Assembly (NCBI GenBank): GCA_009781635.1
Contig: WQXU01000025.1
Coordinates: 1-35,948, forward strand
Length of the DNA: 35,948 bases
Reading direction: 5' to 3'
Source: Treponema sp.
GTDB lineage: Bacteria; Spirochaetota; Spirochaetia; Treponematales; Breznakiellaceae
The notes beneath the pieces were generated by a model that was not told the DNA's origin, ran no database searches, and saw nothing but the letters and a program-made list of their open reading frames with translations. A program made the translations under genes and the position numbers. Below are positions 22,402-35,565 of the stretch, piece after piece (within the stretch, counting starts at the first letter, position 1; the number at the start of each line of letters is the position of its first letter).

Positions 22402-23238
22402 ATGAAAGATAACAATTATTGGACTGTTTTAGGCTGGATGAGAAATAAATTAAAGCTGTCAGGCTATGAAGTTGAAGTATATGCAATAATTTACGGATTT
22501 TCTCAGGACAAAGATTCTCAATTTAAAGGTTCATGTCAATATCTGGCTGATGCAGTAGGAGTTTCAAAGAGAACTATTATATCAATTCTGGGTAAACTGG
22601 TTGAAAAAGGTTATATTCTAAAAACTAAAAGAGGAAAATTTTTTGATTATCAGGCAAGCTCCATTCATTTTCCCGGCGGAGATAAGAGTGAAGAATCTTC
22701 ACCGTCCATTGGTGAAAAAATTGCACCGGTGAAAAAATTGCATCATAAAGGTGAAGAATCTTCACCGGTCACCGGTGAAAATATTTCACCCCATATTACT
22801 ATAAGAGATATACCTAGTCATAATAAATTCAGCGGGTCAGAGGAGCCGCTGAAAAAAAGCTTAATTTCAAAACCAAAAGATAACTTTGAACTAACAATGG
22901 AGCAGTTAAAGCTCTACCGCTCAGCCAAGGACTGCTTTGAGATGTCAGAAAAGTCGAAAGCATTGATGTATCAGGATAAATTATCAACAGCCAGGGAAAT
23001 GCAGCATTTAAAAACTCTTGTAATCCGATGCACTAACATGGCTCCAGGAATAACGGCTGATTTTATGCTGAATGTTCTTGAACACTTTAAAATAATGTGT
23101 AACGGCAAATATCGCAGCAAGATGGTTTTTACTCCGCAATCGTTAATTACTCCGTGGATATGGGCTTTAGTAATAAATTCATTGCCTGAAAATGAATCAC
23201 CGGAAGTAAAAGAAATTATAAGGGGGTTATTTAAATGA
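22402..23238 (+). CDS. phage replication initiator-like winged-helix protein
   Basis: A 278-residue protein. Residues 15-75 form a winged helix-turn-helix (YEVEVYAIIYGFSQDKDSQF, SCQYLADAVGVSKRTIISIL, GKLVEKGYILKTKRGKFFDY) like those at the N-terminus of phage replication initiators. Residues 90-135 are a repetitive linker with EESSP and GE..APV units whose DNA forms a cluster of GGTGAA/TTCACC repeats. The C-terminal half is helical and ends in a segment typical of helicase-loader-type regions (MLNVLEHFKIMCNGKYRSKM, SLITPWIWALVINS). The architecture parallels lambda O, whose origin iterons lie within its own gene. It is translated from AGGA ahead of ATG 22402 and overlaps the next gene by four bases. 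No replicative helicase is seen nearby. Confidence 0.72.
   Translation: MKDNNYWTVLGWMRNKLKLSGYEVEVYAIIYGFSQDKDSQFKGSCQYLADAVGVSKRTIISILGKLVEKGYILKTKRGKFFDYQASSIHFPGGDKSEESSPSIGEKIAPVKKLHHKGEESSPVTGENISPHITIRDIPSHNKFSGSEEPLKKSLISKPKDNFELTMEQLKLYRSAKDCFEMSEKSKALMYQDKLSTAREMQHLKTLVIRCTNMAPGITADFMLNVLEHFKIMCNGKYRSKMVFTPQSLITPWIWALVINSLPENESPEVKEIIRGLFK
22688..22790 (+). other. iteron cluster, candidate replication origin
   Basis: Seven perfect GGTGAA or TTCACC motifs occur within about 103 bases (TTCACC at 22698, 22761, 22785; GGTGAA at 22711, 22728, 22750, 22774), arranged as alternating palindromes, e.g. GGTGAAGA-a-TCTTCACC (22750-22766) and TTCACCGG-tca-CCGGTGAA (22761-22779). They lie inside the initiator-like gene. 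Confidence 0.65.
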
Positions 23239-23612
23239 CAGTAAGGGGATTATTGGATTTTTTTGAAAATTATTATGGTGAAAAATATTCAGGTGTATTT
23301 TTGGATGTTATGACGGAATACTTTGCTGATTGTTCAGATGAGTTTATGAAAGCATCAGCGGCTGTAATAATTAAAAGATTTTCAAGATCATTTAATAAAG
23401 CGCCTGACCTGGCTGTTATTGAAAATAACATTAATGAAATATACAATGAAATGACAAAACTGCAGACAAGGAATGCATTACCGGAACCTCCGCAGGAAAA
23501 ATGTGATTTTAAAACAGCTAAAAAATATATAACAGAAATTAACGAATTATTTAGAAAACTGGATGGAGATGTATTAGCAAAAAAAATTGAGAAAGTTATA
23601 GACGGATTATAA
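23235..23612 (+). CDS. unrecognised helical phage protein
   Basis: A 125-residue soluble protein, mostly helical (LLDFFENYYGEKYSGVFLDV, FMKASAAVIIKRFSRSFNKA, KKYITEINELFRKLDGDVLA). Its ATG overlaps the stop of the replication-initiator-like gene by four bases (ATGA). Position directly after an initiator suggests a helicase loader or a replication accessory, but no motif such as a Walker box is present. AT-rich like its neighbours. Confidence 0.7.
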   Translation: MTVRGLLDFFENYYGEKYSGVFLDVMTEYFADCSDEFMKASAAVIIKRFSRSFNKAPDLAVIENNINEIYNEMTKLQTRNALPEPPQEKCDFKTAKKYITEINELFRKLDGDVLAKKIEKVIDGL

Positions 23613-23712
23613 GATGCGCAATTAAATGTCCTCATTGAAAATTGCATTTAAAAAACTGGCTTAGAAATGGAGTTAATTTACATAGTTTTTAAAAATATTT
23701 TTATAAAAGCTA

Positions 23713-23741
23713 TTGACAAAAATATTAAGATCTGATATCTT
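23713..23741 (+). promoter_or_regulatory. promoter ahead of the tail module
   Basis: TTGACA (23713-23718), 17-base spacer, TATCTT (23736-23741). It is 28 bases before the ATG at 23769, which has GGAGGAG six bases upstream. It probably starts transcription of the tail genes. Confidence 0.7.
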
Positions 23742-23768
23742 TAATAAAGTTGGGGAACTGGAGGAGCT

Positions 23769-24107
23769 ATGTCCTTTAAGTCACCCCATCCCTGCCTGTA
23801 TTCTGGCTGTAGTAATACAGTTCCGTCCAGTTATTTCCAAACACATTTTTATTATCCCCCTGTAAGAACAATTAATAAAAAACCGTCCGTTTCAAAAAGA
23901 AGAAATCATTCTCATGCATACAGGTTCCCTCTTAACTATAATGTAGAGGAAACAATGGATGCTGGAGGAGCATTAAAAGGAAAAAAGAAAGAGGAGGCAG
24001 GAGATAATGCAAATAAATATTTAAACCTGCTGAAAAATCCAGTAAATATCCGCCTGTGCGGTTATTTATACCGCTCTCATGTCGGGAGACAGTATGAGCG
24101 GATTTAA
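23769..24107 (+). CDS. broken HNH-endonuclease-like N-terminus
   Basis: A 112-residue protein. The first 28 residues (MSFKSPHPCLYSGCSNTVPS, then SYFQTH) resemble the zinc-binding start of phage HNH endonucleases, usually HPC.YPGC.N followed by .YC..H. C9, C14 and H26 remain, but the third cysteine is replaced by F24. The HNH catalytic part that should follow is absent; the rest is basic and low in conserved features. In tailed phages such an endonuclease sits beside terminase at the start of the packaging and head genes. Here the next genes are tail genes, so the frame may span a deletion junction. Gene overlap with the following frame is 14 bases. Confidence 0.5.
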   Translation: MSFKSPHPCLYSGCSNTVPSSYFQTHFYYPPVRTINKKPSVSKRRNHSHAYRFPLNYNVEETMDAGGALKGKKKEEAGDNANKYLNLLKNPVNIRLCGYLYRSHVGRQYERI

Positions 24108-24339
24108 ACTACTGCCGAGATGGCAGAATTATACGCCACTATTTCCGGCACAATATCAGGAGGCTTTTTTGAACTCTCTTACAGAATTTTATAAGGGACA
24201 TGCAAAAACAGGTTCAGGAAAAACTTTCAACTATGCAGATCCAGGAGTATCAGGACGGCGTTATTTTGGAGGTGATATCAGATTAAGAACTGTATTTAAA
24301 AACGAATTAAGAAAAACGGAGGGTAAACTTGCAGATTAA
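24094..24339 (+). CDS. small phage protein, probable head-tail connector or tail completion protein
   Basis: An 81-residue protein from ATG 24094, six bases after GGGAGA; an ATG 15 bases upstream is possible. It is polar with a PRWQNYTPLFPAQYQEAFLN start and a basic tail (GRRYFGGDIRLRTVFKNELR). Size and position just before the tail-terminator-like gene and the tube gene fit connector or neck proteins of siphoviruses. No specific family is recognised. Confidence 0.55.
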   Translation: MSGFKLLPRWQNYTPLFPAQYQEAFLNSLTEFYKGHAKTGSGKTFNYADPGVSGRRYFGGDIRLRTVFKNELRKTEGKLAD

Positions 24340-24724
24340 GGATATATTTGACAGTACAAAAGATGCTCTTTCTATAAACGTTCCGGAACTTGGTAATATT
24401 ATAACACATTGGGAAGATCCATTTACGGCTTCTATAAATCAAACTGTTATACTGCCGGATAAAAACAAAGTTGAAGAAAATAAACTATTTTTTTCAATCA
24501 GGCTTTTAATATCAACGGTTGAAAATAATATTGACCTCATTCCATATATACAAATGGATATAGTCAGTAAATTAACATCTATTGTTTGTTCAAATGCGAT
24601 TCCCTTTTCTGCAGCAGGAATTGAATGCATTTACCTTGATCCTGTTCCGCAGGCGCCGGTTACCGGCGTTATTGATATAACTATTGACCTGGTCATTGAT
24701 TATATTGACGATTGCGGTATTTAA
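24329..24724 (+). CDS. tail terminator/completion-like protein
   Basis: A 131-residue protein starting at a TTG, with GGAGGG five bases upstream, and overlapping the previous gene by 11 bases. It is mixed alpha/beta: IKDIFDSTKDALSINVPELG, then FFSIRLLISTVENNIDLIPY and PVTGVIDITIDLVIDYIDDC. The final strand with alternating hydrophobics resembles tail-terminator (gpU-like) proteins that stop tube polymerisation. This is inferred from position before the tube gene and fold-like pattern only. Confidence 0.55.
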   Translation: MQIKDIFDSTKDALSINVPELGNIITHWEDPFTASINQTVILPDKNKVEENKLFFSIRLLISTVENNIDLIPYIQMDIVSKLTSIVCSNAIPFSAAGIECIYLDPVPQAPVTGVIDITIDLVIDYIDDCGI

Positions 24725-24970: not shown

Positions 24971-25642
24971 ATGAAAATAACAGGCTCGCAAGCACATGTC
25001 TTTTTTGACAGCTTTGATGAATCAAAAATGATTTCCTATTCAGGAACCCCGCAATTAACCGCTGCCAATAAATGGTATCTGGTTTTTGACAAGGGAGCGG
25101 CAAGTAATTTACCTGTAGAAAAGGGCTTTCCTTTTCGCGCTCCGCAGGGAACAGATCAGATTGCACTCGTTGCAGGTGACAGAATTTTCCCAATTAATGA
25201 AAAACGTTTCTGTAAAACAACAGCGAGTTTTTCAGCAGAACAGGGCACTGTTGATGTATCTGACGACTGTGATCCGGGAGCAACAATTCTTGACGGTATC
25301 ATAAAAATTACAGGAAGCCTTGCAGGGCTGTTCCGGTATGATGATCAGTCGGGAGAATTTGACGATGTAACAGATGAAATGATAAACCGTTTCTTCGAAA
25401 TTATCGAAGATGACGGAAACGGTATTTACTCGTTAAAAGAGCGCAATGATACTCCAATATATATTCTTACCTGCCTCAATTCAAATGCCAAGGCCGGGCA
25501 GACGGAAAATTGGCTATTCGTGCCGATTAATATTTCAAGTATGAGTATGAATCTTGGCAATACGGATGCTCAAAATAAAGATCTTTCATGGTCAAAGGGT
25601 GAAGGAAAACCTGTAATTTACAAGAGGCCCAAACCGGTATAA
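24971..25642 (+). CDS. major tail tube protein
   Basis: A 223-residue protein. It is beta-rich: MKITGSQAHVFFDSFDESKM, TAANKWYLVFDKGAASNLPV, FPFRAPQGTDQIALVAGDRI, KTTASFSAEQGTVDVSDDCD, ATILDGIIKITGSLAG. Its size, its glycine/aspartate turns and its position directly before the tail assembly chaperone identify it as a non-contractile tail tube subunit of siphovirus type; no sheath gene is seen. It has the strongest ribosome binding site and leader hairpins of the region, as expected for an abundant structural protein. The 60 bases before the next gene contain hairpin-forming text. Confidence 0.72.
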   Translation: MKITGSQAHVFFDSFDESKMISYSGTPQLTAANKWYLVFDKGAASNLPVEKGFPFRAPQGTDQIALVAGDRIFPINEKRFCKTTASFSAEQGTVDVSDDCDPGATILDGIIKITGSLAGLFRYDDQSGEFDDVTDEMINRFFEIIEDDGNGIYSLKERNDTPIYILTCLNSNAKAGQTENWLFVPINISSMSMNLGNTDAQNKDLSWSKGEGKPVIYKRPKPV

Positions 25643-25702: not shown

Positions 25703-26152
25703 ATGGCAAGATTAAAAAGCTTAAATCCAAAAAGCAAAACATTTATTTTTACATCTTTTGGCAATGACAAAGAACAGAATCCTGTAAAAGTAATATTTAA
25801 AAGCTTTCCAAGATTAAATGAAATTTACATGATAAAAGCAGATAACAATATTTTTGACGGGATAGACTTTTCAAAAGCTGCTGATGAAAACATAAAAAAT
25901 AAAATTATTGAAACAATATTCAGCGCAATGATGGAAAACCTTACAAAAGGCAATTATGATTTTAAAGCTTTTTTTAAGGAATGTATAGAACATTTTGAAA
26001 ATTTTGAATATGAGCAGTCAATGATTATTACCGTTGATGATTTTTGGCAGGTATTAGCCGGCGTTCCGCAGGCAGCTGAAAAAATTGCTATGGAAATATA
26101 CGAATATGCCATGCAAAAAGAAGAATTTACCATGGGGGAATTGACAGCCTAG
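25703..26152 (+). CDS. tail assembly chaperone (G-like, 0 frame)
   Basis: A 149-residue protein. It starts MARLKSLNPKSKTFIFTSFG, is helical in the middle and ends MGELTA at a TAG. Size, position between the tube gene and the tape measure, and the slippery heptamer six bases before a stem-loop (26134-26181) identify it as a siphovirus tail assembly chaperone. A -1 slip would fuse it to the following frame. RBS is AGGAGAG four bases before the ATG. Confidence 0.85.
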   Translation: MARLKSLNPKSKTFIFTSFGNDKEQNPVKVIFKSFPRLNEIYMIKADNNIFDGIDFSKAADENIKNKIIETIFSAMMENLTKGNYDFKAFFKECIEHFENFEYEQSMIITVDDFWQVLAGVPQAAEKIAMEIYEYAMQKEEFTMGELTA

Positions 26153-26181
26153 CAACGGGACTGCGCCTGCTGCTGCTGGGC
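26134..26181 (+). promoter_or_regulatory. programmed -1 ribosomal frameshift signal
   Basis: Slippery G-GGG-GAA at 26134-26140 (0 frame GGG GAA). Six bases later GCCTAGCA (26147-26154) pairs with TGCTGGGC (26174-26181), eight pairs with one G-T wobble and a 19-base loop. The 0-frame TAG (26150-26152) lies inside the stem. After a -1 slip the frame is open to 26455. Confidence 0.85.
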
Positions 26182-26457
26182 AAAATAAAAGATGAAGGTA
26201 TAAATGATCCATTTCCTGTGGTAATTCCGGGAGAAGCAAAACCAGTACCTTCAAACAGGGTGTCAAAATATGTAAATAATGATTTTATTCATTATTACAA
26301 TTTTTACACTGACTTTAAAGCAGCGGGAGCCCCTCCCTATACAACGGGATGGCTCGAATGGCCTGAATGGATTTTACAGTTAATAAAAACTTTTGACCAT
26401 GTTATTGAACAGATCAAAAGGCATTATGAAAAAGAAGCGTATAGGAGTTATAAATGA
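26140..26457 (+). CDS. tail assembly chaperone -1 frame extension (T-like)
   Basis: Read after a -1 slip at 26134-26140, this adds 105 codons (IDSLATGLRLLLLGKIKDEG, ending RHYEKEAYRSYK) to the 0-frame chaperone, giving a 251-residue fusion. The frame has no ATG until late; a GTG at 26218 is a weak alternative start without a ribosome binding site. In lambda and many other siphoviruses the G and GT proteins are made in such a ratio and bind the tape measure. The content fits: WPEWILQLIKTFDHVIEQIK is helical and the gene ends four bases into the next. Confidence 0.85.
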   Translation: MDSLATGLRLLLLGKIKDEGINDPFPVVIPGEAKPVPSNRVSKYVNNDFIHYYNFYTDFKAAGAPPYTTGWLEWPEWILQLIKTFDHVIEQIKRHYEKEAYRSYK

Positions 26458-26702
26458 TTTTTTATTTTTTGTTTTTTTTGTTTTCTTTAATTATTTTTAT
26501 ACATTTAACTATTACGGCTATACAGAGTATAAATACAATTATTCCAAGGACAACCGGAATCCATGGGAATTCAACAATCAGAACGGCGATTAATACAAAT
26601 ACAAGAAAAACAGCAATAAATTTAATTATTTTTAAAATAAAAGCACTAATTATTCCCATACTTTCAGTATTATCAGAACTACAAGAGGTTGTCAATGGCT
26701 AA
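26454..26702 (+). CDS. small hydrophobic phage protein
   Basis: An 82-residue protein. The first 30 residues (MIFYFLFFLFSLIIFIHLTI) form a strong membrane span; a second hydrophobic stretch (INLIIFKIKALIIPILSVLS) lies at 60-80. The ATG overlaps the stop of the frameshift product by four bases (ATGA) and its end overlaps the tape measure start by eight bases, both typical of tightly packed phage genes. Function is unknown. The minus-strand frame over the same stretch is also hydrophobic but lacks such linkage, so the plus strand is preferred. Confidence 0.6.
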   Translation: MIFYFLFFLFSLIIFIHLTITAIQSINTIIPRTTGIHGNSTIRTAINTNTRKTAINLIIFKIKALIIPILSVLSELQEVVNG

Positions 26703-29256
26703 TCTGACATTCATTATAGAAACTGATTTAGACGAAGCTGCAAAGCAAATGAATAATCTTGCCAGAGCATCTGAAGAATTACAGAAAAAAATTGAAAAAC
26801 TCGGCGAAGATATGAGAAAAACCGAGGTTGGTAATTTTATACAACAACAAAAGTTATTAACAATGGTTATGAAATCAACAGGAAAAGAGTTTGAAGGATT
26901 AATAAAGCAAAATGATGCATATGAAAAAAAAATACAGTCTCTTAAAAATAAAGGTGTAGATCCCGCTTCTGAATCAATAAAAATGCTTCAGGAGGAAATT
27001 GATAATACAAATACTAACCTGGCAGAACTCAGTACAAATACAGACAATGCCGCCCGGAGTGTGGAAGAAATAGGCAATGCTGCAGTTTATGCTGCAAAGT
27101 TAACTGTCGCGTTAGGTACAGCAATTTTCTCGATGACGCAGGAAACGGCAGAGATGGGAAGTGAAACAGCAAAAACAGCGCGTTCAATAGGAATGACAGC
27201 AGAAAGTTTCCAGGAACTGGATTATGCGGCAAAGCAAAGTGGCGTTAATAATCTGGGCGGATCTCTTCAAAAATTAAATAAAAATATGTCAGATTTAAGA
27301 AGAGGCTCCGGCTCTCTTGCCGCAGCAATAACAGGTACAAATAACGCGTTATTAAATCAATTAGAGTCCGCCAAATCAAATGAAGAAGCATTTGATTTAT
27401 TAATGAAAGCCATAAAAGAAGCGCCGGATGATTTTACAAGAGCAGAGATAGCAACAGCGGCTTTTGGAGAATCCGGTCATGAAATGATTAACATGGCAAT
27501 GAGGGGAGCTGATGGCATAACAGCGTTACGCGAAGAAGCAAAAAAATACGGCATAATGTCAAACGAAACAGCCGAAAACTCTGAAAAATTCATGCATGCC
27601 CAGACAAAATTAAAAACCGCTTTGGAAGGCGTTCAAATTCAATTAACAGAAAAATTATTACCTGTGATCACAGATATTATAATAAAAATTGCTGATTTTA
27701 TTGCAGGTATAGATAACTGGGACATGTATTTAAAAATATTAGCTGTATCACTTGGAATAGTAACAGTAGTACTCGGCGCTTTTATGTTAGTAGTGAAAGG
27801 CGCAGCAATAGTAAAGATATTTTCTGAGGCGATTTTATTTTTATCTGGCGCATTTAAAGCGCTTACTTTAGCAATGACAACAAATCCAATAGGAGCAATT
27901 ATCGCTGCAATAGCAGTAGCAATTACCATGCTAATAGCGGGAATAACAGCATTAGTGAAAAATTGGGATTATGTACAGTTGTCTATACAAAACGGACTTG
28001 CGCATCTTGAATATGGATTTAAGTGGCTTGCAAGCGTAATTAAAGAAGTTTTATTAATTACATTTGCCTATGTAAAAGCAGCCGGAGCTTCATTATTTGA
28101 TTTTATACACGGAAGTATTATTAGATTTGTAGGCTTTATGCTGGATGTTATGGGGAAGATTCCAGGAATAGGTGATTCATTCAAGATTGCAGCAGATGCT
28201 GTTAATAAATTTGGCAATGCTATAGGAGATATGGCAAAGGAAGCCAGAAACTCAATTGACGATACTATTGCTGCAGCCAAAGCCGAGCAGGATGCAACAG
28301 AAGCCGTATTGAATGACAAACTAGAAGCATCAAAAAATGCTATGGCTGCAAGAAGAGCAGAACTGGATGCGAGAAAAGCGGTAATTGAAGAAGAGCAACA
28401 AGCGGAGTTTGAAGCCGGACAAGAAAGAATTGCTATGGCTCAAAATACAGCAAATCAAATAGCAAAAATAGATGCAATAACATTACGTGAAAAAGTGGAT
28501 TTATTCCGCGCCGCATTGAGTAAAGAGGATATAACAGAAAAGCAGGCGCAGGCGGATAAAATAGCAAGCGTTGAACAATTTTTATTACTCCGGACCGAAA
28601 TTGAGCATGAAAAATTAGATGAACGTATAAAATATATGGAAGAGCAGGCACGTATATTACTTGAAAATGAAGAGCTTGCAGCTGATGGAAGGCTTGCTAT
28701 TGAAGAAGCTTTAAAAAACTCAATTGATAAAATGAGGAAAGATTCTGTAAAGCGTGAGCAGGAATTGCTTGAAGAACGCCTCAAGCCAAAGGCTGAACTT
28801 TTGAAAGAATCCAGTGAGTTATTTAAAACACTTAGCAAAGAGAACTGGGAGCTTGCAGTGCTGGGAAAGACAACAGCCGCAGCGGAGGCCGGGATAAACT
28901 CTTATCTTGCGTTTACAAAAGCTCTTGCTTCATCACCACCGCCTGGTAATTATGCAATTGCATCTAGTGTGTTAGCTGCAGGTTTGTCAAAACAGATGAA
29001 AATATGGCAAACAGATATCCCTCCCTTTGAAACGGGCGGCCGTTTTATCGTTCCTGATTTATCATCCAGAGTTGACAATATCGGCTTGCGGGTTAATGCA
29101 GGCGAAGAAATAAACATAACTCCCCGCGGTGAAGAAGGCGGGCAGGCAATTCATCAAATATTTAAAATTGAAAATCAAACTATATTCGAAATCGTAAACA
29201 GGGGGCTGCGCTCCGGAGATATATACGAGTATTCTCCAGCGTGGAATATGCAATGA
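26695..29256 (+). CDS. tail tape measure protein
   Basis: An 853-residue protein from ATG 26695 (AGAGG seven bases upstream); a TTG at 26689 is less likely. N-terminal coiled coil (about 10-125: EELQKKIEKLGEDMRKTEVG), then glycine/alanine and hydrophobic blocks with several membrane-like segments (about 345-430: LKILAVSLGIVTVVLGAFML, IGAIIAAIAVAITMLIAGIT) and a second coiled coil (about 530-700, rich in RRAELDARKAVIEEEQQAEF). The end (GGRFIVPDLSSR, GLRVNAGEEINITPRGEEGG) is the usual tape measure C-terminus. Length would set a siphovirus tail of roughly medium length. It follows the chaperone genes as expected and overlaps the next gene by four bases. Confidence 0.9.
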   Translation: MANLTFIIETDLDEAAKQMNNLARASEELQKKIEKLGEDMRKTEVGNFIQQQKLLTMVMKSTGKEFEGLIKQNDAYEKKIQSLKNKGVDPASESIKMLQEEIDNTNTNLAELSTNTDNAARSVEEIGNAAVYAAKLTVALGTAIFSMTQETAEMGSETAKTARSIGMTAESFQELDYAAKQSGVNNLGGSLQKLNKNMSDLRRGSGSLAAAITGTNNALLNQLESAKSNEEAFDLLMKAIKEAPDDFTRAEIATAAFGESGHEMINMAMRGADGITALREEAKKYGIMSNETAENSEKFMHAQTKLKTALEGVQIQLTEKLLPVITDIIIKIADFIAGIDNWDMYLKILAVSLGIVTVVLGAFMLVVKGAAIVKIFSEAILFLSGAFKALTLAMTTNPIGAIIAAIAVAITMLIAGITALVKNWDYVQLSIQNGLAHLEYGFKWLASVIKEVLLITFAYVKAAGASLFDFIHGSIIRFVGFMLDVMGKIPGIGDSFKIAADAVNKFGNAIGDMAKEARNSIDDTIAAAKAEQDATEAVLNDKLEASKNAMAARRAELDARKAVIEEEQQAEFEAGQERIAMAQNTANQIAKIDAITLREKVDLFRAALSKEDITEKQAQADKIASVEQFLLLRTEIEHEKLDERIKYMEEQARILLENEELAADGRLAIEEALKNSIDKMRKDSVKREQELLEERLKPKAELLKESSELFKTLSKENWELAVLGKTTAAAEAGINSYLAFTKALASSPPPGNYAIASSVLAAGLSKQMKIWQTDIPPFETGGRFIVPDLSSRVDNIGLRVNAGEEINITPRGEEGGQAIHQIFKIENQTIFEIVNRGLRSGDIYEYSPAWNMQ

Positions 29257-29912: not shown

Positions 29913-31723
29913 TGATCAGGTTTTTAGCGGAGATTTCAAGCAGATCCGATATTGCAATACAGCCCACTCCGTCAAATGACTTTTCAAGACTAAGAAATAT
30001 TTACTATCTTGATATATCACCTCACCCGGCAGGCACGTACTGGGAAGAATGGGGCGGCATATATGATAATTTTACAGGAACGCAGATTGAATTATACTAC
30101 AGCAGATTTTTATCCAAGGCGTCATCCGAACAGGAACTGCTTGATACACCCTTTTCATTATTAATTACAAATGATTTTAAAGTATTAATAAATCTTCCTG
30201 TTCACCCCTGGTTATACCCTAATTATGCAACTGAATCGTCAAATGTTATTCCTTTTTTGTCTGCATTCCTTAATCCTGACAATCCGTCTAATAATATATT
30301 GCACGACGCTCCGGCGCAAGTCAGGCTTGAAATACCAAACTTTAATGTAAAATTATCAGAAAATATAAGCGGCATGGTTTTAAATCAGGGCTTTTCGATA
30401 TCGCTTTTGAACAATGACGGCTTTTTTGACGATGAAGATACATGGAATTTATTCAATACGCCCTTATATCTAAAAAAGGCAGTAAACGAGAATCCCTCAT
30501 ATGAGGATTTTAAAACAATAAGATACGGTTTAATCGAAAATTCGCAGACAGATTTTGATTCTTTTAAAATTGACATTGCCGACAGGTTAAAGTCAATGGA
30601 CGAGCCTGCGTGTAATTTAATATCAAGAAGTAATTTTCCTGTAAATATTGAAATTAATGACGATGCGATAAATAAAAATATTTCAATTGTATACGGTACA
30701 AAGAAGGTAAGCTTACAAAAATTAAATGATTCTATGTATCTTGCAGCCGAGCATGTATCGCAGGTTTCGGGCGTATTCGATGCTGACGATGAAGAATTAA
30801 TATATACCTTCGATACTGATACAGGAATTATAACGATTCTGCCTGTTTTCGAAGAAGACGATAAAGAAAAAGAAAATCCGATAATACCGGAGGCCCGAAC
30901 CGCTTTAATTACAGGTTATACGGATAATAACATGTGTGATGTCATTATAGACATTATTACACGTAAAACTGATATCCGGTTTAATGAAGTACACTGGAAT
31001 ATTGACGAAATAAACAGATACAGAAATATCTCGCCTGTTATCAACATTATAATAGATCAGGGAAGCATAAAAAATGCTGTTCAGGATATATTAAAGAATG
31101 ATGTTGCGTTTTTTATTCAACAATCAGACGGCAAATTTACAATAAGAAAATACGGCGAAATATACAGAGAGCATAATATACAAGCCTGGACCATAACAAA
31201 AAGGCCTGAAAAAACCTGGAGTTCCGCGCAGCAAAACTATTTTTCATCATGTGTAATTAATTACGGTTCTTTAGACAAGGATACATTTAAAACCTTATTG
31301 TACCAGGAACGCGCAAGCGAAGCCGAAAAAAAATACAGAAGAAGGGTTACAAAAACATTTGACACCGACCTTGTTAATGAAGATGACGCAAAAGCGCTTG
31401 CAGAACTGCTTGCAAAAAGGTTTCTTATAATGAGGCAGTCAATAAAACTGTCTGTCGGCATTGATACATCCGGATATGAATTAATGGATATCATAAATTT
31501 ACATATCGAAATTAATGATAGAAAGTTCAGCAGGGCAAGCAGATTCATTATTAAAGAGATAAACCCGGCTCAGGATATATTAACTCTGGAAGAAATATAC
31601 GATGACAGACTGGACATTGACGGCGGATATGCGCATACAAAATATTTTGATTTTGAGTTTGACAATATGCACGCATCAACTGCGGATAATGAATATAAAT
31701 TAATACTCGATGGAGGCTCATAA
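29912..31723 (+). CDS. tail hub/baseplate protein
   Basis: A 603-residue beta-rich protein (MIRFLAEISSRSDIAIQPTP start). The middle (about 315-420: TALITGYTDNNMCDVIIDII, INIIIDQGSIKNAVQDILKN, VAFFIQQSDGKFTIRKYGEI) and end are like tail-associated hub proteins that follow the distal tail protein. The ATG shares one base with the previous stop (TAATG). No lysozyme or peptidase motif is seen in the C-terminal part. Function as hub is inferred from order. Confidence 0.65.
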   Translation: MIRFLAEISSRSDIAIQPTPSNDFSRLRNIYYLDISPHPAGTYWEEWGGIYDNFTGTQIELYYSRFLSKASSEQELLDTPFSLLITNDFKVLINLPVHPWLYPNYATESSNVIPFLSAFLNPDNPSNNILHDAPAQVRLEIPNFNVKLSENISGMVLNQGFSISLLNNDGFFDDEDTWNLFNTPLYLKKAVNENPSYEDFKTIRYGLIENSQTDFDSFKIDIADRLKSMDEPACNLISRSNFPVNIEINDDAINKNISIVYGTKKVSLQKLNDSMYLAAEHVSQVSGVFDADDEELIYTFDTDTGIITILPVFEEDDKEKENPIIPEARTALITGYTDNNMCDVIIDIITRKTDIRFNEVHWNIDEINRYRNISPVINIIIDQGSIKNAVQDILKNDVAFFIQQSDGKFTIRKYGEIYREHNIQAWTITKRPEKTWSSAQQNYFSSCVINYGSLDKDTFKTLLYQERASEAEKKYRRRVTKTFDTDLVNEDDAKALAELLAKRFLIMRQSIKLSVGIDTSGYELMDIINLHIEINDRKFSRASRFIIKEINPAQDILTLEEIYDDRLDIDGGYAHTKYFDFEFDNMHASTADNEYKLILDGGS

Positions 31724-34700
31724 TGGAAACAATTAAAGCAAGAATACGAGTAAGGCGCGATAATGCGAACAACTGGAATACAAATAACCCAATCCTTGCA
31801 GACGGCGAAATTGGTGTAATTTCTTCAGGAGAAAACGCAGGACGGCATAAAGTAGGCGATGGCGATACGCCATGGAATAACTTAATTTTTTCAACGTACA
31901 CCCTGCCTCCCGGCGGTATACCGCGAAATGATTTGTCGCAAAATGTAGTTGACTCTCTTAATAAAGCGGATTCGGCATTGCAGCAAAACGCATTATCGGG
32001 GATTAATCAAAATATTACACAGGCTGTTAATTCCCATAACACAGCGGCATCTTCGCATGAGGATATAAGAACATTAATTGCGGATGAAACAAGCGCAATA
32101 AACCAGCAAATTCAAGATGAAGTTGCCGACATAATTAAACAAATAGAAAATGAGGCGGCTGCATTGCAGAAAGCAATAGACGTAGAAGCATTGGCAAGAC
32201 AACAGGCTATTGCAGATGAAGTTATTGCACGTAATCAGGCTATTTTTACAGCCATAAATGAAGAAGCTGAAATATTGCTACAAGCTATTGAAGATGAAGC
32301 GGTTGCAAGAGACCAACAGATATCGGATGCAATTAGATTAGAGGCAATTGCACGTCAGGATCAAGTTCAATTTTTAAACTTACAGATACAAGCTACAAAT
32401 GATGTACTGGAAGGCGTGCATAATACAAAATTAACCGGAGCTACGCTGACTAGAACGTTAAACGGCACTACAGAGATACAAAAAAGTTTATTTGCGGCCG
32501 GTACTGTTTTTATCGCAGGAAAAACCTCAATATTCGACACAAACGGAACGATGGGAGTTTACATTGGGGATGCTAATAGTTCAACTATTATAATTGCAAC
32601 AAAAACAATAAGCCCTATAGGAACTACAGAGACACCCTTATTAGGGCAAGTACCAACAAATGCCGACTTGCCGCAAACAGCCGCTGCTGTTGAAACAAAA
32701 TTCGGCAGAACGCCTTCACTGGATAATTATGTTCAAGTGATGACGGATGAAACTTTTGGCGGCGCAAGGGTTGAATGGTACATAACAAATATTGACGCAT
32801 CCGGAAATATAACATGGGGGAACCCTGTCCCCATGAATACGGGTGATTTCCAGGTGCAAACAACTGCTGCTGATGCCGGGAAAATATTAATCGGCGGCGC
32901 GGTTCCCGGAACGTTTGGAGAAAGTAAAACCATCGACACGCTGCCAGTCCAAAACAGCAATAACTTGATAAGCTCCGGCGGCGTGTGGTCATGGTTTGGA
33001 GCTGCCGTATCTGCATTAAAGACAAGCGCAAAAACTGTTGTAAATGCGGTTAATGAGTTATTTGATAATAAGGCAGATAAAACCGATTCAAGGTTTCAAG
33101 AAACAGAACCTAAATCTGTTCTTAATGCAACCTTAAATAATACAACGTTACAGACATGGTTAGATTCAAGAATGACTAATAATAGTACGCAAAGATTTAT
33201 TCTTACTTTAACTTCATCATGTACAGATGCACCTTTTCAAACAGGAGCTTTATATTGCACAGTTACTTATGCATCAACTAATAGAACGCTTATTGGCGTT
33301 TATTCAACTAATGGCAGAGTTTATTCTGCAAGATGGGGTTCAACAAATCCGCTAACATCTGCATCATGGACACCAATATTATATAAAGGTGATGCAATAC
33401 CTATAACGGAATCATTTACAACAGGAGATTTAAATAACTATATTAGTAATGGAACATGGTGGATTGGCACTGGAGGGACATTACAGAATATGCCCAGCGG
33501 TGTTACAAATGGTTATTTGTTTGTAATTTCAAGTGCTGCAAATATTGTAAAGCAAATATTATACAGACATGGAACCATAAACTCAAATGATCATCAGCAA
33601 TTTACAAGAACATTAGCGAGTACCGGATGGTCAGATTGGATAAGAATTCTTACTTTTAATGATATTGGAACTGGATCAAGTTCAGTAGCTGCAGGAAATG
33701 ATAATAGATTTACATCACAGGTTAGAAAGGTAGGAAGGCTATGGCCGAATCCTCCGGTCCCGGGACAAAGAGAATTTACCGACTTAGGTGAATTTTTATT
33801 GGCAATATTAGGCACATCAACTACTAGCAATACAACGTTAAGCTCTTCTAGCAATAACTACAGTACAGTTAAAGGCTTCATTGATGAAAGTGTATACAAT
33901 AATGTTTTATCAGAAAATAAACCTCCTGTAGTAACAGCAGTATCGGGAAGGGTTTTATTTGAAGTATCTTGTTTGAGCGGTGCACTTAATATTAACGCTG
34001 CTGGGAATTTTTCTTCAAAATTTGAATTTAGGGTGATTCTTCAATTCCGAGGCGGTGAAATATGGCATGGTACTGCATTAGGGAATAATAATGGCAATAT
34101 ACAAGTTATCACATGGAGAATGGGTGGAATTAGCTCACTTGACCCTGCAAGAATCGCACAAAATGCTTCTAATAGATTTGTAAGCGATACAGAAAAAAAT
34201 AACTGGAATGGAAAATCTGAATTAAATATTGGAACTGGAGCTTCCAATGCAGCCGCTGGAAATCATACCCATACAGTCTCATCCGGAATAAACGCTGCCA
34301 ATATCAATGCCGTTCCTGCTGCTTCCGATGAAAATACAACCAAGTTTGCAAATGGTAATATCAGCAGTAATTTACAGGCATGGATACAGAATTTTGCAAG
34401 AAAAATAAATGGAATAATATCAGAATTAGCAAAAAAAGCAAACTTATCACACATTCATTTAGCTTCTGATATAACACAAAATGCAACTAATAGATTCATA
34501 ACAGATTCAGAAAGAACCGTATGGAACGGTATGGCTGCCGGAAGCATAAATAATTTTAAAGCGACTGTAATTAGAACACATGGTTCTCTTACTGGCACTA
34601 ATACTGTGACTAGTACTATTTATGGCTCGCAAACTCCAACGGCAGGAGTATCTAATACTTCTTTTAGAATTGTAATTGATGATAATACTAGAGTGTATTA

Positions 34701-34920
34701 TGTTCATAATCATACATCGGATACAATAAGACGATTATGTGTACACAATCAGAGCGGAAGACAAATTGCGTATATGTTTTATGCGATGCGATCAAACAAT
34801 GTTTCTTCAATACGCGGAGTTGCTAACAATACTATAGACAATTGGTGGGACATAATGGCTGATGATCATATTATGATTTATATAATAGACAGAGACCCTC
34901 AAGTTCCGGTTAATCCATAA
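31723..34920 (+). CDS. long tail fibre with Mtd-N-like start
   Basis: A 1065-residue protein. Residues 5-65 resemble the Mtd N-terminal type domain: RIRVRRDNANNWNTNNPILA, then DGEIGVISSGENAGRHKVGD, then GDTPWNNLIFSTYTLP. Residues 90-235 are coiled coil. Two near-identical collar segments are seen at about 806-830 (IAQNASNRFVSDTEKNNWNG) and 913-935 (ITQNATNRFITDSERTVWNG), the common S.I.QNA.NRF..D.E...WNG module of phage fibres. A glycine/serine-rich head ends at VPVNP. The start overlaps the previous stop by one base. It is the probable receptor-binding fibre. No reverse transcriptase or template repeat was seen, so no evidence that the C-terminus is diversified. Confidence 0.86.
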   Translation: METIKARIRVRRDNANNWNTNNPILADGEIGVISSGENAGRHKVGDGDTPWNNLIFSTYTLPPGGIPRNDLSQNVVDSLNKADSALQQNALSGINQNITQAVNSHNTAASSHEDIRTLIADETSAINQQIQDEVADIIKQIENEAAALQKAIDVEALARQQAIADEVIARNQAIFTAINEEAEILLQAIEDEAVARDQQISDAIRLEAIARQDQVQFLNLQIQATNDVLEGVHNTKLTGATLTRTLNGTTEIQKSLFAAGTVFIAGKTSIFDTNGTMGVYIGDANSSTIIIATKTISPIGTTETPLLGQVPTNADLPQTAAAVETKFGRTPSLDNYVQVMTDETFGGARVEWYITNIDASGNITWGNPVPMNTGDFQVQTTAADAGKILIGGAVPGTFGESKTIDTLPVQNSNNLISSGGVWSWFGAAVSALKTSAKTVVNAVNELFDNKADKTDSRFQETEPKSVLNATLNNTTLQTWLDSRMTNNSTQRFILTLTSSCTDAPFQTGALYCTVTYASTNRTLIGVYSTNGRVYSARWGSTNPLTSASWTPILYKGDAIPITESFTTGDLNNYISNGTWWIGTGGTLQNMPSGVTNGYLFVISSAANIVKQILYRHGTINSNDHQQFTRTLASTGWSDWIRILTFNDIGTGSSSVAAGNDNRFTSQVRKVGRLWPNPPVPGQREFTDLGEFLLAILGTSTTSNTTLSSSSNNYSTVKGFIDESVYNNVLSENKPPVVTAVSGRVLFEVSCLSGALNINAAGNFSSKFEFRVILQFRGGEIWHGTALGNNNGNIQVITWRMGGISSLDPARIAQNASNRFVSDTEKNNWNGKSELNIGTGASNAAAGNHTHTVSSGINAANINAVPAASDENTTKFANGNISSNLQAWIQNFARKINGIISELAKKANLSHIHLASDITQNATNRFITDSERTVWNGMAAGSINNFKATVIRTHGSLTGTNTVTSTIYGSQTPTAGVSNTSFRIVIDDNTRVYYVHNHTSDTIRRLCVHNQSGRQIAYMFYAMRSNNVSSIRGVANNTIDNWWDIMADDHIMIYIIDRDPQVPVNP

Positions 34921-35052: not shown

Positions 35053-35565
35053 ATGGACTTCAATATTATTGAGGAAAAAGTTAAAGAAAACAAAGAAAAA
35101 ATTGGTTGGACTAATAAAAGACCTTTTATGGAATTGACAAAAATAATTCCTGATAATGAAACATTGTTTTTTGCAATCAGCGGGCTAATGAAGAAAAATG
35201 GGGTTACTGTTATTGGTATTACTGAAACTAATATATATATTGTTGCAGAACCCATGGCGGGAATGGCTTTAACAAATTCAATAATCCCGCTTGACAGGGT
35301 AACAAGCGTAGCTTCAAAAGGCGGTGTTTTTGGATCATTACAAATAGCAGAAGGAACTGTAGTGCATGTTTTAGAAAATATTTCGCCTGCGAATGCATCT
35401 AATGCTGTTTCTGCTTTTAACAAAGCTAAAATGGCTCAACCAAAACCTCAACACAGCCAGGTATCTGAGGCTGATGAATTAATAAAATTTAAAAAACTAT
35501 TGGATGATGGGGTTTTAACACAAGAAGAATTTGATAAAAAGAAGGCTCAGATACTTGGTTTATAA
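35053..35565 (+). CDS. bacterial PH-domain protein with SHOCT tail
   Basis: A 170-residue protein. Residues about 18-115 are a bacterial pleckstrin-homology-like domain (YozO-type: TLFFAISGLMKKNGVTVIGI, NIYIVAEPMAGMALTNSIIP, LDRVTSVASKGGVFGSL). Residues 139-168 are a SHOCT motif (ADELIKFKKLLDDGVLTQEE, FDKKKAQILG), a short helical interaction module. Such proteins are common on chromosomes and phages, but roles are mostly unknown. It has its own promoter and lies between two structural genes, so it is probably a moron gene expressed in lysogens. AGAGGG lies eight bases before the ATG. Confidence 0.88.
   Translation: MDFNIIEEKVKENKEKIGWTNKRPFMELTKIIPDNETLFFAISGLMKKNGVTVIGITETNIYIVAEPMAGMALTNSIIPLDRVTSVASKGGVFGSLQIAEGTVVHVLENISPANASNAVSAFNKAKMAQPKPQHSQVSEADELIKFKKLLDDGVLTQEEFDKKKAQILGL

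Follow-up and report, generated by a model that had tools for sequence, protein, structure and literature searches.

A −1 programmed ribosomal frameshift very probably allows one tail gene in a Treponema sp. contig to encode two proteins, as judged by comparison of sequences. The gene lies in a stretch of 35,948 nt of contig WQXU01000025.1 (GCA_009781635.1), here called the window, whose source is akin to the termite-gut Treponema spirochaetes. Comparison with homologous loci argues that the frameshift signal is real, selected and conserved. The lambda-type mechanism is already well known; the proteins belong to a new, sequence-orphan family of putative tail chaperones from spirochaete phages.

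The frameshift signal in the window

The 0-frame codons across the site read ATG GGG GAA TTG ACA GCC TAG, and the downstream stem is built by eight base pairs between GCCUAGCA and UGCUGGGC (Table 1). The −1 frame is open from position 26080 to its TGA, which shares a 4-nt overlap (ATGA) with the start codon of the next ORF at 26454. A shift at the heptamer is predicted to produce a fusion of 146 + 105 = 251 residues. An earlier note on this DNA had placed the heptamer, a six-base spacer and an 8-bp stem holding the 0-frame stop, all of which are correct to the base; the reading frames likewise bear out its −1 frame of 105 codons up to a four-base overlap, its 149-residue protein and its 251-residue fusion. 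A Shine-Dalgarno-like stimulator upstream of the site is weak in the window (−2.0 kcal/mol); such an element is also present in the homologous loci L004, L021 and L015, and the family overall is near background. A long outer pairing between the heptamer region and positions 26211–26228, seen in the window fold, is not kept in relatives and was dropped.

Table 1. Coordinates of the frameshift signal and its flanking tail genes in the window.
Feature	Coordinates	Strand	Basis and remarks
Major-tail-protein-like gene (upstream context)	24971..25642	+	Weak match to PHROG 1407 (major tail), E 0.14; homologue in L021, E 0.012
ORF1, 0-frame, tail-assembly-chaperone-like, putative gpG analogue	25703..26152	+	149 aa; ATG 25703, TAG 26150-26152; 13 homologues aligned
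Slippery heptamer G_GGG_GAA	26134..26140	+	0 frame ATG GGG GAA; sequence read
ORF2, −1-frame extension, putative T-domain analogue	26137..26457	+	About 105 codons; TGA 26455-26457; without a start codon of its own
Spacer, heptamer to stem (6 nt)	26141..26146	+	Sequence read
Predicted stimulatory stem, 5' arm GCCUAGCA	26147..26154	+	Holds the 0-frame stop TAG; folding and covariation
Predicted stimulatory stem, 3' arm UGCUGGGC	26174..26181	+	Folding and covariation
Tape measure protein (downstream context)	26695..29256	+	PHROG tape measure families, best E 5.6e-32; listed ORF from TTG 26689, ATG at 26695

Taken alone, the window is mildly unusual. A stem of at least 8 bp at the same spacing occurs at 4.7% of random positions, and the fold energy of the window is unremarkable against shuffled sequences (z −0.4 to −1.15) and uninformative. 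Base rates were drawn from 400 kb of the same genome, which holds 646 open stretches of at least 100 aa; in this sample, 116 ORF ends are followed by at least 60 open −1 codons beyond the stop. GGGGGAA in slip phase near the stop was found at none of these 116 ends, and some X_XXY_YYZ heptamer at about eight of them. The single genome thus lends only moderate support to a frameshift signal, and the case becomes decisive because the signal is conserved in relatives.

Conservation of the reading frames, heptamer and stem

Single-sequence scans of viral contigs, genome contigs and annotated phages returned no relatives, which were instead recovered by searching whole genomes and by scanning viral contigs with alignments. 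Nineteen distinct homologous loci are complete enough across the site, with L009 (at a contig end) and L016 (a weak, chance-like match) left out. One homologous locus lies in a Treponema sp. metagenome-assembled genome (MAG) and one in a Spirochaetaceae MAG, in keeping with the spirochaete host that the earlier note had proposed; overall, the 18 distinct relatives that keep the two-ORF layout come from treponeme genomes and viral contigs. The ORF1 proteins of 13 aligned homologues are 34–52% identical to that of the window, and the −1-frame domains are 26–51% identical, with nine invariant residues across 15 sequences. Beyond the 0-frame stop, the −1 frame stays open for approximately 101–119 codons in all members, and each of the 18 relatives in the correct frame has a −1 ORF that is open and similar in length and sequence.

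The phase relation between the two ORFs is the same in 18 of the 19 loci. The exception, L025, has an A8 run and is off by one base, probably owing to a homopolymer indel; at L025 5423–5445, ORF2 occupies the +1 frame instead of the −1 frame, and a perfect stem of about 15 bp follows downstream. That resemblance to an indel, together with a tail cluster in the window that lacks recognisable head genes and is perhaps a degraded prophage, could be taken as a sign that the frame is split by an assembly error or by pseudogene decay. However, 18 further sequences, assembled independently, change phase in the same way at this codon, and they show conserved protein on both sides and compensatory changes in the stem. 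We give this explanation almost no credence, and for the family it is excluded by the recurrence.

It is also conceivable that ORF2 is a separate gene, translated from its own start or by re-initiation past the ORF1 stop, since the ORF1 stop and the ORF2 frame overlap closely and an annotation program would call GTG 26218 as the ORF2 start. Yet the −1 frame of the window contains no ATG, GTG or TTG from −54 to +60, and the ORF2 starts available in relatives are scattered and unconserved. GTG 26218 itself falls inside the conserved domain, and starting there would remove a conserved N-terminal helix. Independent initiation is highly improbable, and the absence of start codons excludes it in practice.

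Three types of slippery site occupy the same codon in the family: GGGGGAA in eight members (window included), GGGAAAC in five and an A9 run in six. The GGGGGAA heptamer is identical in L004, L005, L008, L014, L015, L017 and L021, at 34–52% protein identity, and the 0-frame stop directly follows GAA in six of the eight members with this site. Stops close both frames outside a short interval around the heptamer, which confines the frame change to positions −9 to +7 in L005 and L017 and to positions 0 to +7 in L022, L024 and L035. The pattern X_XXY_YYZ, typical of canonical signals, is matched by the GGGAAAC and A9 (AAAAAAA) relatives, whereas the heptamer of the window departs from it: XXX is GGG, but YYY would be GGA. 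The description of the signal as 'textbook' in the earlier note is therefore loose, since G_GGG_GAA is not an X_XXY_YYZ heptamer.

The stem was analyzed in the 13 non-A9 sequences, comprising the GGGGGAA and GGGAAAC members. Across these, 96.2% of the cells are paired and five of the eight pairs display double compensatory changes. Covariation amounts to 0.601, as compared with 0.260 ± 0.037 after shuffling, and none of 500 shuffles reached as high a value. Sliding either arm destroys the covariation, every slid register being far lower, and a set of ten sequences gives the same result. In the 13 sequences, the covarying stem, with its 6-nt spacer, lies within the range of 5–9 nt downstream of the slippery site. 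The A9 members have equally strong stems, located ~20–30 nt downstream of the run; the 8-bp stem of the window is among the weaker ones in the family. Conservation had been set beforehand as a check on the proposed frameshift, and it was found at each level: seven relatives keep GGGGGAA, the stem covaries, and 18 relatives keep the −1 ORF.

The heptamer and stem also bear on whether the frame change is made by the ribosome at all, as RNA polymerase slipping on a homopolymer would generate mRNA with an extra or missing base. A9 is a run length at which bacterial polymerases slip, and such a run is present at the site in six relatives. The run in the window, by contrast, is just G5, and the five GGGAAAC relatives have no run longer than three. 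The covarying stem that follows the heptamer after 6 nt fits a stimulator acting on the ribosome, and stems are retained even in the A9 members, where they lie further downstream. As a general explanation, polymerase slippage is very unlikely; it is possible on the A9 branch and unlikely at G5 or GGGAAAC.

In a tree of the ORF1 and ORF2 proteins, rooted by midpoint only, GGGGGAA members fall on either side of the midpoint, A9 arose once (support 96/94) and GGGAAAC arose once (100/99). In the simplest reading of this midpoint-rooted tree, GGGGGAA looks ancestral and was replaced twice. A fuller scenario, which we put forward tentatively and regard as rather unlikely, holds that ancestral G_GGG_GAA was replaced twice at one codon, by G_GGA_AAC and by A9 with the stem moved downstream, and that on the A9 branch transcriptional slippage may have taken over from ribosomal slippage without loss of the fusion protein.

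Genomic context and the putative chaperone role

The order major tail protein, ORF1/ORF2, tape measure is conserved in relatives, and because of this gene order we consider a lambda G/GT-type tail assembly chaperone to be a supported, analogy-based assignment for ORF1/ORF2. The ORF1 and ORF2 proteins have no sequence match in Pfam, PHROG or PDB. The ORF1 model (pLDDT 77) finds a tail assembly chaperone as its best fold match in BFVD, at an E-value of only 0.17, followed by further chaperone and tail proteins; the predicted resemblance is suggestive only. The ORF2 domain is modelled as helical (pLDDT 88), and its fold search gave no usable match, as did the fold searches against PDB. The tail-chaperone label given in the earlier note thus agrees with the gene order and, weakly, with the fold, and finds no counterpart among sequence profiles.

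Relatives carry a lambda-like head operon upstream, with head protease, decoration and major head genes. The corresponding region of the window (22402–24724), upstream of the tail cluster, has no recognisable head genes but instead a DnaD-like replication gene and small ORFs; L019 and L021, in contrast, have the protease, decoration and major head genes. The major head protein of L021 has no match in the genome of the window; the tail cluster there may lack a head module or belong to a prophage in decay. Within this region, two overlapping ORFs of 112 and 86 aa (23769–24339) possibly represent a broken or frameshifted gene, since the 86-aa ORF corresponds to the C-terminal portion of a connector-like ORF that is longer in L017 and L018. 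A hydrophobic ORF of 82 aa with a good ribosome-binding site (26454–26702), which separates the frameshifted pair from the tape measure gene, has no family match. Further downstream, positions 31723–34920 encode a tail fibre-like protein of 1065 aa, whose N-terminal match to an Mtd domain is weak (E 1.9e-5) and falls short of the curated threshold; a SHOCT-domain protein comes next (35053–35565).

Proposed mechanism and relation to known systems

We infer the slippage itself and how efficient it is, together with the tRNA steps and the role as chaperone; these would combine as follows. The majority of ribosomes would stop at TAG 26150 and yield the 149-aa chaperone, and a minority, paused by the stem while GGG and GAA occupy the decoding sites, would move back by one base along the G5 run. 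The P-site tRNA-Gly would re-pair perfectly, GGG to GGG, and the A-site tRNA-Glu would re-pair from GAA to GGA with a middle G-U; because of this G-U pairing, the event would differ from textbook tandem slippage. Slipped ribosomes would then unwind the stem and read 105 more codons, giving the 251-aa fusion. Because the heptamer departs from X_XXY_YYZ, slippage could be inefficient. By analogy with lambda, the N-domain would coat the tape measure protein, the fused C-domain would bring the major tail protein, and tail assembly would need a low ratio of fusion to short form. The lambda model assigns coating of the tape measure protein to the short form, and recruitment of the major tail protein to the fusion (PMC5009743).

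Lambda G/GT and the pair described here both sit between the major tail protein and tape measure genes of the tail operon, and both combine a −1 shift (predicted here) close to the 3' end of ORF1 with a long C-terminal extension in the −1 frame. The heptamers differ: lambda has G_GGA_AAG, as opposed to G_GGG_GAA here. The pair also differs from lambda G/GT in its strong conserved stem directly downstream, and from the known chaperone families in that protein sequence similarity is undetectable.

GGGGGAA itself is a recorded motif, assigned by annotation in approximately 1000 actinophage tail chaperones (the 'fivetwo' motif of the SEA-PHAGES set in PRFect; PMC10885494), and its use has been proposed in corynephage phi16 (PMC5506516). 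The family described here resembles these phages in having the identical heptamer in the same gene and, as in phi16, a predicted downstream RNA structure. In contrast, the hosts of the actinophages and phi16 are high-GC Gram-positive bacteria, and their proteins are unrelated to this family as far as profiles show. The structures also differ, with a pseudoknot and an internal Shine-Dalgarno site predicted in phi16 and a simple hairpin 6 nt downstream here.

Gene finders would break the coding region of such chaperones in two, a short gene followed by a truncated one. The family provides strong covariation evidence for a stimulatory stem beside a non-canonical GGGGGAA, and a natural series of slippery-site replacements, G5AA, G3A3C and A9, at one codon.
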